Origin: Natranaeroarchaeum aerophilus | GTDB taxonomy: Archaea > Halobacteriota > Halobacteria > Halobacteriales > Natronoarchaeaceae | Reading direction: 5' to 3' | Length of the DNA stretch: 59,000 nucleotides | Assembly: GCF_023638055.1 (NCBI RefSeq) | Contig: NZ_JAKRVY010000013.1 | Coordinates: 1-59,000 of the forward strand | Shown here: in pieces, positions 4,985 to 56,229 of the stretch | Layout: each line of letters begins with the position of its first letter | Numbering within the stretch: position 1 is the stretch's first letter | The notes under the pieces: generated by a model | What the model saw: only the letters and a program-made list of their open reading frames with translations | Databases searched by the model: none | Told to the model about the DNA's origin: nothing | Made by a program: the position numbers and the translations under genes

Positions 4985-6304
4985 ATGACACGGGTGATCC
5001 ACACCGGCGACACCCACATCGGGTATCGGCAGTACCATTCGCCGGAGCGCCGTCAGGATTTTCTTGACGCGTTCCGACAGGTCGTTGAGGACGCTATCGC
5101 CGACGACGTCGACGCCGTCGTTCACGCTGGCGACCTCTTTCACGACCGACGGCCCGACCTCCCCGACATACAGGGGACGGTAGCCGCCCTACGAGAGCTC
5201 GACGATGCCGACATCCCGTTTCTCGCAGTCGTCGGGAACCACGAGACGAAACGCGACGGACAGTGGCTCGATCTCTTCGAGGATCTCGGCCTGACGATCC
5301 GGCTCGGGGCGACGCCGGAAGTCGTCGGGGATATTGCATTCTACGGCCTCGATTTCGTCCCCGAATCACAGCGTGATGAACTCGACTACGAGTTCGACGG
5401 GGCCGACGATGCCGACCACGCGATGCTGGTGGGCCACGGGCTTTTCGAGCCCTTTGCCCACGCCGACTGGGACACCGAACGTGTCCTGACTGCCGCCTCG
5501 ATCGACTTTGATGCCCTGCTGCTCGGCGACAACCATGCGCCCGGGAAACGGGAGCTACTGGACACCTGGGTCACCTACTGTGGCTCGACGGAACGGGCGA
5601 GCGCGTCCGAACGGGACGAACGGGGCTACAACATCGTCACGGTCGACGGGGACGGGGTCTCTATCACCAGACGCGCCGTTGCCGATACCCGCGACTTTCG
5701 CTTCGTGGACGTAGAGCTGGCTGAGGGAGAGGGGACCGACAGGGTCCGCGAGCGCGTCCGCCAGCACGACGTCGAGGACGCGGTCGTCATCGTCACGGTC
5801 GAGGGCGAAGGTGAACCGGTGACGCCCGCGAGTGTCGAAGAGCTCGCGCTGGATAATGGCGCGTTGATCGCCAGAGTCAACGACCGCCGCGAGATCGACC
5901 AGGAGACGGATGTCAGCGTTAGTTTCGCGGATCCCGACGACGCCGTACGGGAGCGACTGGGTGACCTGGGTCTGAGTCCCGCCGCCCGAGATATCGACGA
6001 GACGGTCCGCGAGAGCAAGGTCGCCGACTCGAACGTCCGAGAGCGTGTCGAGTCGCTCGTGCGCGAGCGCGTGGACGAGGGGCTCGACGCCTTCGAGAGC
6101 GCCGAGACCGATAGTGGCGGCGAGGCGGCCGACCAGTCCGATGAGGACACTCAACCGGACGAAACCGACGACCACCCGGTCGAGGAGCCGGCCGCGGACG
6201 ATGACAGCGCGGCTGAGGATCCGACCGGAATCGACGCCGACCGGACGGATACAGACAACGCCGGAGACACGGACTCACAGCGATCCATGGAGGAGTATCT
6301 ATGA
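4985..6304 (+). CDS. mre11: DNA repair exonuclease/endonuclease Mre11
   Basis: Manganese-dependent nuclease that, with Rad50, processes DNA double-strand breaks. Phosphoesterase motifs are in place in the 439 residues: GDTHIG at 8-13, GDLFHDR at 49-55, GNHE at 84-87 and a later GHGLFE. The capping region follows. The last 80 residues are an Asp/Glu-rich tail, longer than in bacterial SbcD and probably unstructured. The stop overlaps the rad50 ATG by four bases, the standard arrangement for stoichiometric translation. Confidence 0.96.
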
Positions 6305-8979
6305 GGTTTCGGCAGGTTCGGATGGAGAACTTCAAGTGCTATGCCGACGCCGAACTCGATCTCGATACCGGCGTCACCGTGATCCACGGGGTCAACGGGA
6401 GCGGCAAGTCCTCGCTGCTGGAGGCGTGTTTCTTCGCCCTCTACGGTTCCAAGGCGCTTGACGACCGGACGCTCGACGACGTGATCACGAACGGCGCTGA
6501 GGACGCCGAAATCGAACTCGTCTTCGACCACGCGGGCGAGTCCTACCGGATCGAACGCCGCCTGCGACTGAGCGGCGAGCGCGCCCAGACGGCAAAGTGC
6601 GTCCTGGAGACGCCGGAAGGGAGCGTCGACGGGGCACGTGCGGTGCGCGAGCACGTCACCGAACTGTTGCGGATGGACGCCGAGGCGTTCGTCAACTGCG
6701 CGTACGTCCGGCAGGGAGAGGTAAACAAGCTGATCCACGCCTCGCCGAGCGATCGCCAGGACATGATCGACGATCTGCTCCAGCTCGGGAAACTGGAAGA
6801 GTACCGCGAGCGGGCGAGTGAAGCGCGGCTAGCGGTCAAAACAGTTCTCGACGGCCAGCGCGACGTGATCGAGAGCCTCGACACCCAGATCGAGGACAAG
6901 GAACAAAAGGAGTTACACGCACAACTCAACGAGCTGGAGACCGAACTGGAGGAGAGCAACGCCGAGATAGACCGGCTCGAAGACCAGATCGAGTCCGCGC
7001 GTGAGACGAAAGCCGACGCGGAGTCGGTGCTTGCGGAGTACGAGGAGAAACGTGAGCGGATCGACGACCTCGAAGCCGATATCGAGGAGCTCCGCGACAA
7101 AATAAGCGACACTGAGGAGGAACGCGACCGTCTCAAATCCGAGATCGGCGAGTATCGCGACCGACTCGACGACCTGCACGAGCGCCGCGACGAGCTGCTG
7201 GCCGACGCGAGCATCGGCGACGATGCGGACACCACGGCGGTCGAATCGACCCTCGACGACCTCGAAGCGCGAGATGACGAGCTCCGCGACGATCTCGAAT
7301 CCATCCGGGGAGAGATCGGCGAGTACACCACTACGGCCGAGAACGCCCGAGAACGTGCCGAGGAACTCGAAGCGGAGGCCGAAACCGTACGGGAGGACGC
7401 CACCGATCTCGAAGCCGAACTCGACGAGGACGAGACCAAACTCGACGAGCGCCGCGACAAACTGGACGAGATCGACGACGAGATCGCGGCAGCGAACGAA
7501 ACCCTTCAGGACGCACCGGTCGAGTTCGGTGAGGCGACCGACCACGCCGACACGCTTGAGGCCGAACACGAGGAGCTACGCGAGGAACTCACGGACGTCC
7601 GGACCAAACTCGAATCCGCCAGAGGGTCGGTCGAGGAGGCCGAAGCTCTGCTGGAGGAAGGCAAGTGCCCCGAGTGCGGCCAGCCGGTCGAGGACTCACC
7701 ACACGTCGACACACTCGCCGACGATCGCGACCGTGTGGCGGAGCTGGAGGCAAAGCGCGAGGAACTGGCCGAAGAGCGCTCGGCGGTCCGCGAGCGCCGC
7801 GAGGCAGCCGAGGCGCTCGTCGAAGCGGAGCGACGTGTAGAAGAACTTCGTACGAACCGTCAGAATGTCGAGCAACTGATCGAGGAACGGGAAGCGACGC
7901 TATCGGACAAACGCGAGCGGGTCGACGACCTCGAAGAGCGTGCAGAAACCCTCGACGAGCGCGCGGAGGAAAAGCGGGCGGCTGCATCCGAGGCCGCGAC
8001 GGATGCCGAGGAGCTTCGCGGGGAGATTGCCGAGATCAACGCCGAGCGTGCGGAGATCAGGGACCGCCGCGAGCGGCTCGAATCGCTCGAAGAAACCCTT
8101 GATGAGATCGAGGAGCTACAGGATGCCATCGAGGAGCACCGCGAGCGCCGTACCGAAAAGGACGAGTTGAACGACGAGCGACGCGAGCGGCTGGCCGAGA
8201 AGCGCGAGCGCAAAACGGACCTGCAGTCGGCGTTCGACGACGACCGCATCGAGGCGGCCCGTGAGGACCGGGAGCGTGCCGAGAAGTATCTGGAGCAGGC
8301 AGAACCGGCTGCCGAGGAAGAACGCGACCGTCGCGACGATCTGCTCGACCGGATCGGTGGCGTCAAAAACGAGCTGAGCGAGCTCGAATCACTGCGCGAG
8401 AAACGAGAGAGCGTCGCTGCACGACAGAGCGCCCTCGAATCGTTATACGACGAAGCTCAGCAGCTACAGGAGACGTACGGGGACCTGCGGGCTGAGCTCC
8501 GCCAGCAGAACGTCGAGACGCTCGAACGGATGCTCAACGAGACCTTCGATCTGGTCTACCAGAACGACTCGTACTCCCACATCGAACTCGACGGCGAGTA
8601 CGAACTAACTGTCTATCAGAAAGACGGCGCACCGCTGGCCCCGGATCAGCTATCGGGTGGTGAGCGCGCCCTCTTTAATCTCAGTCTCCGGTGTGCGATC
8701 TATCGCCTCCTCGCCGAGGGGATCGATGGGGCCGCGCCGATGCCGCCGCTGATCCTCGACGAACCGACCGTCTTCCTCGATTCGGGACACGTCTCACAGC
8801 TTGTGGAACTGATCGGCTCGATGCGTGATCTCGGCGTCGAACAGATCATCGTCGTGAGCCACGACGACGAGCTGGTGGGTGCAGCCGATAGCGTTGTCGA
8901 AGTACGGAAGGATCCGACGTCGAACCGCTCGTCCGTGGAGCGCCGCGAGGAGGTCGGGGCGGCAGCGCTCGCCGAGTAA
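6301..8979 (+). CDS. rad50: DNA repair SMC-like ATPase Rad50
   Basis: Partner of Mre11 that tethers and senses broken DNA ends through ATP-driven dimerisation. The 892 residues show Walker [10 protein letters not shown] at 30-38, two long charged heptad coiled coils, a zinc hook CPEC at 456-459 midway between them, the ABC signature LSGGE at 784-788, Walker B LILDEPT with Asp820-Glu821, and a D-loop (FLDSGH). Length and hook position are typical of archaeal Rad50. Many Arg/Glu repeats in the coils produce long spurious frames on the opposite strand. Confidence 0.97.
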
Positions 8980-52710: not shown

Positions 52711-52772
52711 TCCTGTGTCCTCCGATAGCCGACAGGGACAGTACGTATCCGCAGATCGTATCCGTTGATCGG

Positions 52773-52860
52773 CCGTAGTCAGCGAGATTCCCTGCCGTAG
52801 TCAGCGAGATTCCCTGCCGCAGTCAGCGACATGCCCGGCCGCAGTCAGCGACGGACTCGG
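52773..52860. repeat. 22-bp tandem array, four copies, overlapping pcc1
   Basis: Units start at 52773, 52795, 52817 and 52839. The first two are identical (CCGTAGTCAGCGAGATTCC core); the third and fourth share CCGCAGTCAGCGAC. The pcc1 stop codon (52823-52825) lies inside the third copy, so the end of the gene is array sequence. Confidence 0.9.
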
Positions 52861-53086
52861 CCACGTCGACCAGCGTTAACCAGGTGTTCGAGGCCGCACG
52901 GAGTGCAACCAGATCAGTCGCTTCAACGGTAACCTCTATTGTTGATTCCGAGCGAGAGAGGGAGACCTGCGAGCGCTCGTCATCAATATCACCGACCTCT
53001 GGACGGACGCTCCGCTCGATTATCCGTGCAACAGTAGCCGAGTCGTACGCAAACGTGTAGGTCGCTCCGTGTACGAACGCGTCCAT
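52823..53086 (-). CDS. pcc1: KEOPS complex subunit Pcc1
   Basis: 87 residues. Pcc1 dimerises within KEOPS, which makes t6A37 in tRNA. The family pattern is evident: ATYTFAYDSATVARIIERSVRPEVGD, then STIEVTVEATDLVALRAASNTWLTLVDVAESV. The last nine residues (VADCGRACR) come from the 22-bp array and are not family-like. It lies 11 bases after rpoP. Confidence 0.9.
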   Translation of the reverse strand: MDAFVHGATYTFAYDSATVARIIERSVRPEVGDIDDERSQVSLSRSESTIEVTVEATDLVALRAASNTWLTLVDVAESVADCGRACR

Positions 53087-53855: not shown

Positions 53856-53860
53856 CGTTC

Positions 53861-53884
53861 TAATTATATGTAATTACCACGTGG
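53861..53884. promoter_or_regulatory. AT-rich dyad and CCACGTGG palindrome
   Basis: TAATTA-TATG-TAATTA (53861-53876) directly followed by the perfect palindrome CCACGTGG (53877-53884), upstream of the small membrane-protein gene. May serve as TATA/BRE plus operator. Confidence 0.45.
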
Positions 53885-53924
53885 CACGTAAACGTCGGGG
53901 GGTGCTTTCGAGGGAAACAGAGTC

Positions 53925-53945
53925 TCCCCACCATGTCGAGTGTTC
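53925..53945 (-). repeat. Origin-recognition-box-like element, weak copy
   Basis: On the minus strand GAACACTCGACA followed by TGGTGGGGA. It keeps the AACACTCGACA core but lacks the full G run. Confidence 0.5.
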
Positions 53946-53976
53946 GCACTTCGACGGGGGTGTCGGTGAATGGGAC

Positions 53977-54002
53977 CCTCCCACCCCACTGTGTCCAGTG
54001 TT
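53977..54002 (-). repeat. Origin-recognition-box-like element
   Basis: Minus strand AACACTGGACA, CAGTGGGGTGGGAGG. Same core as the copies at 54131 and 56101. Confidence 0.7.
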
Positions 54003-54130
54003 CCACCGGTGAGGTGGGTGGGGGTAGCTTGTGCCAGCTATCTTCTTACAGCGAGAGAATCCCGCCGTTCACGGCGAGGAGGATGTCACCCAGAAGACGA
54101 CGCAAGTGAGCATACTTTGCAATGTATCAA

Positions 54131-54156
54131 CACCCCACCCCACTCTGTCGAGTGTT
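54131..54156 (-). repeat. Origin-recognition-box-like element
   Basis: Minus strand AACACTCGACA, GAGTGGGGTGGGGTG. Near-identical to 56101-56125, which lies in the opposite orientation. Confidence 0.75.
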
Positions 54157-54215
54157 CTCGGAGAATCTAGTGGGGGAGTCTACTGAGGGTGTTTCCATGC
54201 GACAGAGAAGCGTGA

Positions 54216-55427
54216 TCACGGAGCGTGACGCAACACGTCGGGCGGAAGATCGACCGTCTCCAGATCTTCGATGACGTCAAGCACCATGTCGACGGCGACG
54301 TCGAGATCGTATACGTAGTACTTGCCACCAGCGCGTCCCTCGTTGCGAGTATTTCGGGAGAGAATCCCCTGCATCGCAAGATCCGAGAGGTGGTCGTGCA
54401 TCCGCCGACGGACGAGTGGGTTCGTCCCCACGTATTCCGCAGCCGAGCGGTATCGCGGATAGATCTCGCGGACACGTGCAGGTGTCTCCTCTTCAAGGGC
54501 GAGACTCAACACGGCGACCAGCGACAGATGGCCGTGCTGGGTAAGATCAACCATTCCCTGTTTGATTCGCCCCCGTTCGAGCGCACGCTGTGCTTCCCTG
54601 ACGTGTTTCTCTTCGACGCCTTCGACGTCCTGTGATCGGGCAAGATCGCCCGCCTTGTACAGCAGGTCGAGGGCCTGTCGGGCGCTTCCGGTGTCCTGCG
54701 CCGCGAGGGCAGCACAGAGCGGTAGGACACCATCGGCGAGGACGTCCTCGTGGAGCGCGTTCTGTGCACGCTGCTGAAGGATCGATTCGAGTTCGTTTGC
54801 GACGTACGGCGAGAAGTGGATCTCCTCCTCACAGAGCGTGTCCTTTACTTTGGGCGACAATCCGCTGCGGAAGCTAAAGTCGTTGCTGATGCCGATGATT
54901 CCGGGTTTTCCCTGCGAGAGGTAGCCGTTCGCTCGAGCACGTGGAAGTTCGTACAGCAGGTCGTCGTCGTCGCCAATGTGATCGATCTCGTCCAGTACGA
55001 TCAGCACGGTTTCCCCGAGCGAGTCCAGTTCGTCGTACAGCATGTCGAAGATCGTCTGCTGGGGATAACCGGTCGTGCTAATCTGTTCGTTCGGCCCGCG
55101 GAGCTCGTTGACGAGGTGGGCCGCAACCTGGTACGAGGATGTGAGATTGTTGCAGTTCAACCAGACGATCGAGAGATCTACGTCGTCGTACTCGGCGACA
55201 TCCCGCTGCAGATGGTCGAGCAGATAGCGGGTCGCGACGGTTTTTCCCACCCCCGTCTTCCCGTACAGGAAGATGTTCCGCGGCTGAGCTCCGTTTACTA
55301 CCGGCTGAAGCGCCGTCTTGTACGCATCGAGTTCCTCCTCTCGCTCCTGGATCGACTCGGGCTGGTAGTCCTCCCGGAGGACATCTTCGTCCTGAAAAAT
55401 AGTCGTGTCCCGATCGAAGAGCGGCAT
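54216..55427 (-). CDS. orc: Orc1/Cdc6 replication initiator
   Basis: 403 residues. AAA+ ATPase with Walker A GKTGVGKT at 56-63 and Walker [10 protein letters not shown] at 144-152; the C-terminal 100 residues form the DNA-binding winged helix ([34 protein letters not shown]). It binds origin recognition boxes and loads MCM. I place the start at 55427 ([11 protein letters not shown]): the TATA element at 55451-55459 is about 28 bases upstream, suiting a leaderless transcript; a start four codons earlier (55439) would be too close. The gene lies inside a pair of box-containing regions, typical of archaeal origins. Confidence 0.93.
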
Positions 55428-55450
55428 TTGCGTAACCATAGAACAGGTGG

Positions 55451-55459
55451 CATATAAAA
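55451..55459 (-). promoter_or_regulatory. TATA box of orc
   Basis: TTTTATATG on the minus strand, centre 28 bases before position 55427; supports leaderless initiation at that ATG. Confidence 0.6.
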
Positions 55460-55504
55460 CCACCGTGTCGAGTGCGTCGACTGTTTCTGGCGGTATATAT
55501 TCGA

Positions 55505-55527
55505 CCACCCCCAGTGTGTCCAGTGTT
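55505..55527 (-). repeat. Origin-recognition-box-like element
   Basis: Minus strand AACACTGGACA followed by CACTGGGGGTGG. Lies just upstream of the orc promoter, with a degenerate second copy at 55460-55474 overlapping the promoter, so Orc could regulate its own gene. Confidence 0.65.
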
Positions 55528-55701
55528 CTTGTAACTGATACCGTACTTTCGAGATCGATGGTCGCTCTGGAGTGGTATGTTGCTGGGATCACGGATCGTC
55601 TGACACCACTCCGTCAGATGTTCTATTCCGAGCGTGTCTGGTAAACACGTTTCGATGTATCCGTAACAAAACGGTATCTGAATCACGAATACCACGGACC
55701 T

Positions 55702-55783
55702 AGCAACGAACCACTTGAACCCAGCAACGAACCACTTGAACCCAGCAACGAACCACTTGAACCCAGCAACGAACCACTTGAAG
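55702..55783. repeat. 21-bp tandem array (iteron-like), four copies
   Basis: Units at 55702, 55723, 55744 and 55765, reading AGCAACGAACCACTTGAA plus CCC. The first three are identical; the fourth ends with GAAG. No spacers and no open frame. Sits in the middle of the origin region. Confidence 0.9.
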
Positions 55784-55903
55784 CCGTTCTATCCTGTGAC
55801 TGGGTCTCACCACGTCATGGGATGTCACCTTGCGTGATGGGATTCGAAACTACTCGTGTCAGGTAGAGATTCAGTTTTCGGAGGTCGGCTGGATATTCCC
55901 AGT

Positions 55904-55948
55904 AACACTCGACAGTGTGGGGTGGGGGACAGTGTGGGGTGGGGGAGG
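55904..55948 (+). repeat. Two tandem origin-recognition-box-like elements
   Basis: AACACTCGACA then GTGTGGGGTGGGGG, immediately followed by a second ACAGTGTGGGGTGGGGGAGG. Orientation opposite to the copies beside orc. Confidence 0.75.
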
Positions 55949-56020
55949 CGGCGGAGAATCTAGACGAATCTCTGTAATCCAGCTGAATCTCTGTGATTCA
56001 TTCGATATGCTGGTGTGAGC

Positions 56021-56094
56021 GACCCCTTCTCTCACCCTTTTTGCCTACTTTTCCCACCCTCTCTTTCTATCCTTCTCCCCCACCCATCCCTCCA
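56021..56094 (+). other. Polypyrimidine tract
   Basis: About 74 bases almost purely C and T, between the last two box elements. Strand-asymmetric tracts of this kind ease duplex opening or triplex formation. It contains no coding signal. Confidence 0.7.
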
Positions 56095-56100
56095 AGCAGT

Positions 56101-56125
56101 AACACTCGACAGAGTGGGGTGGGGG
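56101..56125 (+). repeat. Origin-recognition-box-like element
   Basis: AACACTCGACA followed by GAGTGGGGTGGGGG, the best copy on the right side; a degenerate copy follows at about 56162. Confidence 0.75.
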
Positions 56126-56229
56126 AGGTATCGCCTCGATCGCTCCCCTGATCAAACATCCCGTAACACGCGACATACTGGTGTCTCTGTCGGGATCCGG
56201 ACATCGGATTCTGGAATTCGTGTGCCGGG

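Follow-up and report, generated by a model that had tools for sequence, protein, structure and literature searches.

Published features of haloarchaeal replication origins include inverted G-string origin recognition boxes (ORBs), an adjacent orc gene and a cluster of ORBs downstream of it (PMC3528665; PMC3936714). The sequence of the ORBs is linked to the family of the Orc initiator, and Orc proteins are treated as orthologous when they share at least 80% identity (PMC3528665). In oriC1 of Haloarcula hispanica, the G-strings point outwards around an AT-rich core, and genetic analyses of oriC2D from the same organism showed that increasing the number of downstream ORBs lowers plasmid concentration (PMC3936714).

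Here, we analysed a locus from Natranaeroarchaeum aerophilus situated at positions 53856-56229 of the window, i.e. the whole 59,000-nt stretch of DNA under analysis. A first-pass annotation had proposed a probable replication origin around an orc gene, and this is supported by the agreement of three elements: the orc gene itself, inverted and family-specific G-string boxes that are unique to the locus, and the same arrangement at homologous loci. Judging from its sequence, the locus is very probably a secondary replication origin of the chromosome, acquired in this lineage and belonging to the replicator-initiator kind of haloarchaea. Its overall class, a replicator-initiator pair with G-string ORBs, is an established one; what we add is the empty-site boundary of the cassette and a tandem element in the orc promoter. 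The features of the locus are the following:

53856-56229, no strand: whole cassette of 2,374 bp (ORB cluster, orc and origin region), with an empty site in the sister genus
53922-53944 (core 53934-53944), minus: ORB of the downstream one-way cluster, exact core, shortened G-string
53980-54002 (core 53992-54002), minus: ORB of the downstream cluster, exact core
54134-54156 (core 54146-54156), minus: ORB of the downstream one-way cluster, exact core
54216-55427, minus: orc1/cdc6 initiator gene, 403 aa from the conserved ATG at 55427 or 407 aa from an in-frame ATG at 55439
55452-55482, minus: orc promoter element, AGTCGACGC ACTCGACAC plus GGTGG, abutting the TATA box TTTTATAT
55505-55527 (core 55517-55527), minus: gene-proximal ORB of the upstream region, AACACTGGACACACTGGGGGTGG, exact core
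55616-55735, no strand: candidate unwinding region between inverted ORBs, with modest AT enrichment only
55698-55782, plus: array of 4 x 21 bp overlapping the candidate unwinding region, 98% matches
55904-55926 (core 55904-55914), plus: distal ORB of the upstream region, inverted with respect to that at 55505, exact core
55928-55943, plus: partial box, a tandem duplication (17-bp period) of the G-string half of the ORB at 55904
about 56022-56093, plus: pyrimidine-rich tract between the two distal ORBs, 8 purines in 72 positions
56101-56123 (core 56101-56111), plus: distal ORB of the upstream region, exact core
56165-56183, plus: weak ORB, AACACGCGACATACTGGTG

The host draft genome (G000) comprises 3.29 Mb and contains nine genes with a Cdc6 lid domain. 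The Orc from the locus shows the Pfam domains Cdc6_lid (5e-26), Cdc6_C (8e-20) and AAA_22, and its best solved relative is Cdc6-1 (2qby_A, 6e-62). We place its start at the Met that is residue 5 of the longer reading (MPLFDRD...), because its relatives have no codon for the earlier Met. The protein is 99.5% identical in a congener (G006) and 90-92% identical in two genomes of another genus (G007 and G008), while the surrounding non-coding DNA has diverged far more, indicating that orc is under purifying selection. Its nearest named homologues from Haloarcula are 70-71% identical.

Six exact AACACTSGACA cores, each followed by a G-string, flank orc, with four on the minus strand and two on the plus strand, which bears out the earlier description of a box repeated in two orientations. 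The copy reported as weaker at 53925 does have an exact core and differs only in its G-string tail, and what had been taken for another box at 55929 repeats in tandem, over 17 bp, the second half of the box at 55904 and lacks the AACACTC core. The pattern AACACTSGACANNNNGGGG has only eight matches with 0-1 mismatches in the whole genome, and six of them fall in a single 2.3-kb stretch at the locus (P about 3.5e-15). An equal frequency of the motif elsewhere, which the first-pass annotation had named as refuting an origin, is not what the genome shows. The two remaining matches are at C18:5252 and C6:136706; the former was discarded as a further Orc site because it lies inside a TFB-like coding gene, and near-matches from G007 and G008 were likewise discarded, since they are inside a gene for a MeaB-like GTPase. 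A search with a similar pattern in six other whole records (G006, G007, G008, two named genomes and plasmid pR1SE2) retrieved 43 matches, about 38 of which are at orc loci, and the reversed pattern yielded none in the same records. Literature searches with the box sequence returned unrelated matches only.

These boxes might instead be operators of an Orc-like transcription regulator, in a locus that is not an origin. In Sulfolobus, Orc1-2 does not act as an initiator and binds the promoter of its own gene (PMC9738581), and there is a box-like element on the orc promoter studied here. Nevertheless, long inverted G-string boxes that flank orc on either side and are nearly absent from the rest of the genome agree better with an initiator than with a regulon, and H. 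hispanica origins with a comparable layout replicate plasmids (PMC3936714), so we consider this explanation highly improbable.

The sequence criteria of Wu et al. for haloarchaeal replication origins adjacent to orc/cdc6 also agree with an origin here. The gene encodes an Orc of more than 300 aa (403-407 aa) with AAA+ and C-terminal winged-helix domains; the adjoining intergenic regions contain repeated G-string ORB-like boxes, six in all; at least two inverted ORBs, at 55505 (minus) versus 55904 and 56101 (plus), surround a modestly AT-enriched stretch, a candidate unwinding region; and the box sequence is specific to the Orc family, being AACACTCGACA in clade A and AACAGCGGACA in clade B. 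As had been anticipated from known archaeal origins, an Orc1/Cdc6 gene paired with boxes of opposite polarity is found both here and at homologous loci. In about 20 homologous orc loci, the G-strings of the boxes on each side are directed away from orc, and the upstream region additionally holds boxes of the other polarity. Both boxes and polarity are kept in the four genomes that carry the cassette (G000, G006, G007 and G008).

In its layout, the locus most resembles oriC2-cdc6E from H. hispanica (PMC3936714), with which it shares G-string ORBs of its own, a bipolar upstream set and a secondary chromosomal position. The likeness in layout extends to oriC2D, because a one-way cluster without inverted pairs of its own, composed of three same-way boxes (53922-54156), lies directly downstream of orc; it has three boxes in about 0.36 kb, versus 11 in 722 bp at oriC2D. 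The nearest plasmid-borne sister group with a named, characterised locus that we found is H. hispanica oriP-cdc6K, on pHH400, with its relatives. Their orc is likewise flanked by boxes on either side and its promoter has the same layout, but their Orc is about 60-63% identical and the core is AACAGCGGACA, as read in the relatives L074-L076 rather than in pHH400 itself, instead of AACACTCGACA. In turn, plasmid pR1SE2 from Halorubrum lacusprofundi contains an identical box, AACACTCGACACGGTGGGG, on both sides of an Orc gene and with the same polarity, the Orc being about 67-70% identical; unlike our locus, this pair is plasmid-borne, has more upstream boxes and different neighbours. Haloarchaeal oriC1-cdc6A also has inverted G-string ORBs adjoining an orc gene. 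The locus does not, however, belong to this type: it has neither the oriC1 gene neighbours nor its closest similarity to Cdc6A, identity between its Orc and that of oriC1 reaching only some 33-40% over the aligned stretches. A cdc6A-like gene exists elsewhere, at C1:212063 in the host and at position 1365 in the congener, in whose complete genome the locus is ca. 1.14 Mb away from oriC1. No relatives were found among viral contigs.

In an IQ-TREE phylogeny of the Orc proteins, the two types of box are separated from each other by a branch with support 100/99. Clade A includes the Orc studied here and others from Haloarcula, Natronomonas, Halovenus, Halorubrum and pR1SE2, whereas clade B includes those from Halobaculum, from plasmids of Haloferax gibbonsii and H. 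marismortui, and from some Halorubrum. This split is the published linkage between Orc family and ORB, found again. Among these relatives, Halovenus carboxidivorans (L060) has a second pair of the same boxes (about 700-1170) at ca. 5 kb from the intact pair (5836-7445), next to a fragment of a degraded orc, as would be left by a duplication of the origin followed by decay of one copy. Likewise, Halorubrum coriense (L063) and H. distributum (L065) contain further orc-like sequences 1-6 kb from the origin, with many boxes; these are clustered origins.

The AT-richer stretch between opposed boxes spans about 55528-55903. Within it, the segment 55616-55695 has an AT content of 0.57 and its helix instability is at the 97.8th percentile within the window. 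That this enrichment is only modest counts against an origin, and so does the lack, in several relatives, of any full inverted box upstream other than the promoter element. The other repeats that had been reported in this region are real as sequences, including the 4 x 21-bp array, with a degenerate inverted copy of its unit at 55571-55591, and the 19-bp-period repeat, with two copies at 55957-55994 (84%). The 11-mer shared by both flanks is also there, in fact as a 12-mer, CGGAGAATCTAG, at 54159 and 55952. Nonetheless, the array is absent from G006, G007 and G008, i.e. it is species-specific among the relatives compared, and was discarded as an essential part of the origin. The alignment with the congener does not retain the 12-mer, so that neither of the two looks like a core component. 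The polypyrimidine tract is confirmed and is the sole one of its kind in the window; the congener likewise shows a purine-rich stretch on the orc strand at that position. Within the 21-bp unit, CACTTGAACC corresponds to the box core CACTTGAACCGGTGG found beside the orc genes L038 and L039 of G007 and G008. We saw no close relative of the L038/L039 Orc in the host genome, and this match is possibly due to chance.

The cassette sits between a DUF2103 gene and a gene for a small membrane protein. In five genomes of the sister genus (G001-G005), the order is DUF2103, a gap of about 70-100 bp, the small membrane-protein gene, rpl37ae and pcc1, with no orc in between, and in G000, G006, G007 and G008 the same gap holds the unit of boxes, orc and boxes. 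The origin was therefore either acquired whole by the common ancestor of the two genera that have it, or the sister genus has lost it.

Alternatively, the cassette could be a dormant or decaying origin, a backup or the relic of an integrated plasmid, with replication carried out by oriC1 and possibly by another origin. Some predicted ori-cdc6 pairs are documented as dormant in wild-type Haloferax mediterranei (PMC4595724), the cassette is lineage-specific, a relative of the Orc/box pair is on a plasmid, and skew analyses gave no clear signal. For GC skew, we examined evenly spaced 20-kb stretches, which together make up some 40% of the chromosome in the complete genome of G006, the congener, and found no turning point at the locus nor at oriC1; being flat even at oriC1, it says nothing about the locus. 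Gene-strand bias did not yield any signal either (p 0.82). The cumulative AT skew of this genome, sampled every 50 kb, turns at 1.80 Mb (permutation p 0.02), ca. 0.1 Mb from the locus at 1.902 Mb, a turn that could correspond to a terminus as well as to an origin. Over the G006 chromosome C1, this skew describes a single V, with turns near 1.80 Mb and 2.95 Mb, close to the locus and to oriC1. Dormancy has to be reconciled, however, with the conservation of Orc across two genera under purifying selection, and with the retention of boxes and polarity in four of four genomes; we regard it as somewhat unlikely.

The orc promoter has an element of which we found no description in the openly accessible article texts searched. 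The weak box copy noted at 55460 is indeed a degenerate match, although it is really a tandem of the ORB core with a 9-bp period, joined to the orc TATA box (55452-55459), which precedes the conserved ATG by some 34 nt. In the direction of orc, from 55482 to 55452, it consists of two 9-bp units of the ORB core, then the first bases of the G-string and then the TATA box. The same layout is present at most of the orc genes compared, spanning 13 protein clusters, and is in single copy in each of G000, G006, G007 and G008. The stretch upstream of the congener cdc6A did not show any promoter tandem, which is a further difference from oriC1. The self-similarity of the promoter elements at lag 9 has a mean of 0.468 over cluster representatives, a value that none of 2,000 shuffled sequences reached (best lag 0.334 +/- 0.015), and is 0.275 for 130 other G/C-TTTTA(T/A) sites of the congener. 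In 11 of 13 clusters, the element is closer to the boxes of its own locus than to the boxes of the remaining clusters (Wilcoxon p 0.0017), p values here being indicative only because the TATA-like pattern was picked by eye and the clusters share descent. The resemblance is strong in L050, L051 and L034 and absent in the L035, L040 and L042 group, so that the element tends to change along with the ORB but does not always do so.

A copy of the ORB core at this position suggests that Orc represses its own gene, or that the copy is the inverted partner box of the origin. On the first reading, Orc on its own promoter would likely compete with TBP/TFB and orc would be repressed; there are precedents both for an Orc protein that sits at the promoter of its own gene, in Sulfolobus Orc1-2 (PMC9738581), and for initiator autoregulation, in DnaA (cited in PMC3936714). 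We consider it an evenly balanced proposal that the plasmid-type ('shell') orc genes of haloarchaea share an autoregulatory switch, made of two or three 9-bp repeats of their own ORB core joined to the TATA box, whereby the level of initiator would be set by the same code that marks the origin, and which would re-evolve with the box in each Orc family. According to the second reading, the tandem would be the inner inverted Orc platform of the origin, beside an AT-rich stretch containing the TATA box, and would not serve autorepression. Several clade A loci (e.g. L059-L063 and L073) agree with this, as they have no full gene-proximal inverted box upstream beside the promoter element. Yet in the window, L032, L056 and L058 a full inverted box does exist in addition to the element, some 100 bp upstream of the start, and the element is always contiguous with the TATA box, at 31-44 nt from the start, so we lean against a platform that excludes autorepression. 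The two roles are compatible with each other.

We thus propose that the Orc encoded at 54216-55427 would bind its family-specific boxes, and that those of opposite polarity flanking about 55528-55903 would place two Orc complexes face to face. Two MCM hexamers would then be loaded at the AT-richer stretch and, upon firing, forks would leave both ways. If it behaves like oriC2D of H. hispanica, the downstream cluster of three boxes would titrate Orc and thereby restrain initiation, while the ORB-core tandem on the TATA box would set the supply of Orc through self-repression. As a complete, probable secondary origin with known limits, for which the sister genomes offer a clean empty site, the cassette allows the gain or loss of a chromosomal origin to be studied, and the 2.4-kb unit could be moved as one piece. 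If the promoter element acts as proposed, it would be a direct archaeal link between initiator dosage and origin identity, much as the DnaA boxes within the promoter of dnaA are, and one could then test whether the copy numbers of many origins residing together are controlled independently.

The surroundings of the cassette had also been related to a secondary chromosomal origin near rpl37ae-rpoP-pcc1 in other haloarchaea. There is no orc relative in the DUF2103-rpl37ae interval of the genomes checked outside the family, nor in the flanking sequence covered, and named relatives outside it carry the same Orc/box unit in unrelated surroundings; hence, this link is unsupported for this origin within the few kb checked. 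In H. volcanii, Orc2 (oriC3) is HVO_0634 and Orc5 (oriC2) is HVO_1725 (PMC7776575). The DUF2103-rpl37ae interval reaches 4.5-5 kb in two other haloarchaea, at L127 and L128 (G113 and G068), without a relative of this orc. Finally, the window contains a 22-bp tandem array of about four copies at 52770-52862, at the 3' end of pcc1, which is partly present in the congener, where the compared sequence ends.
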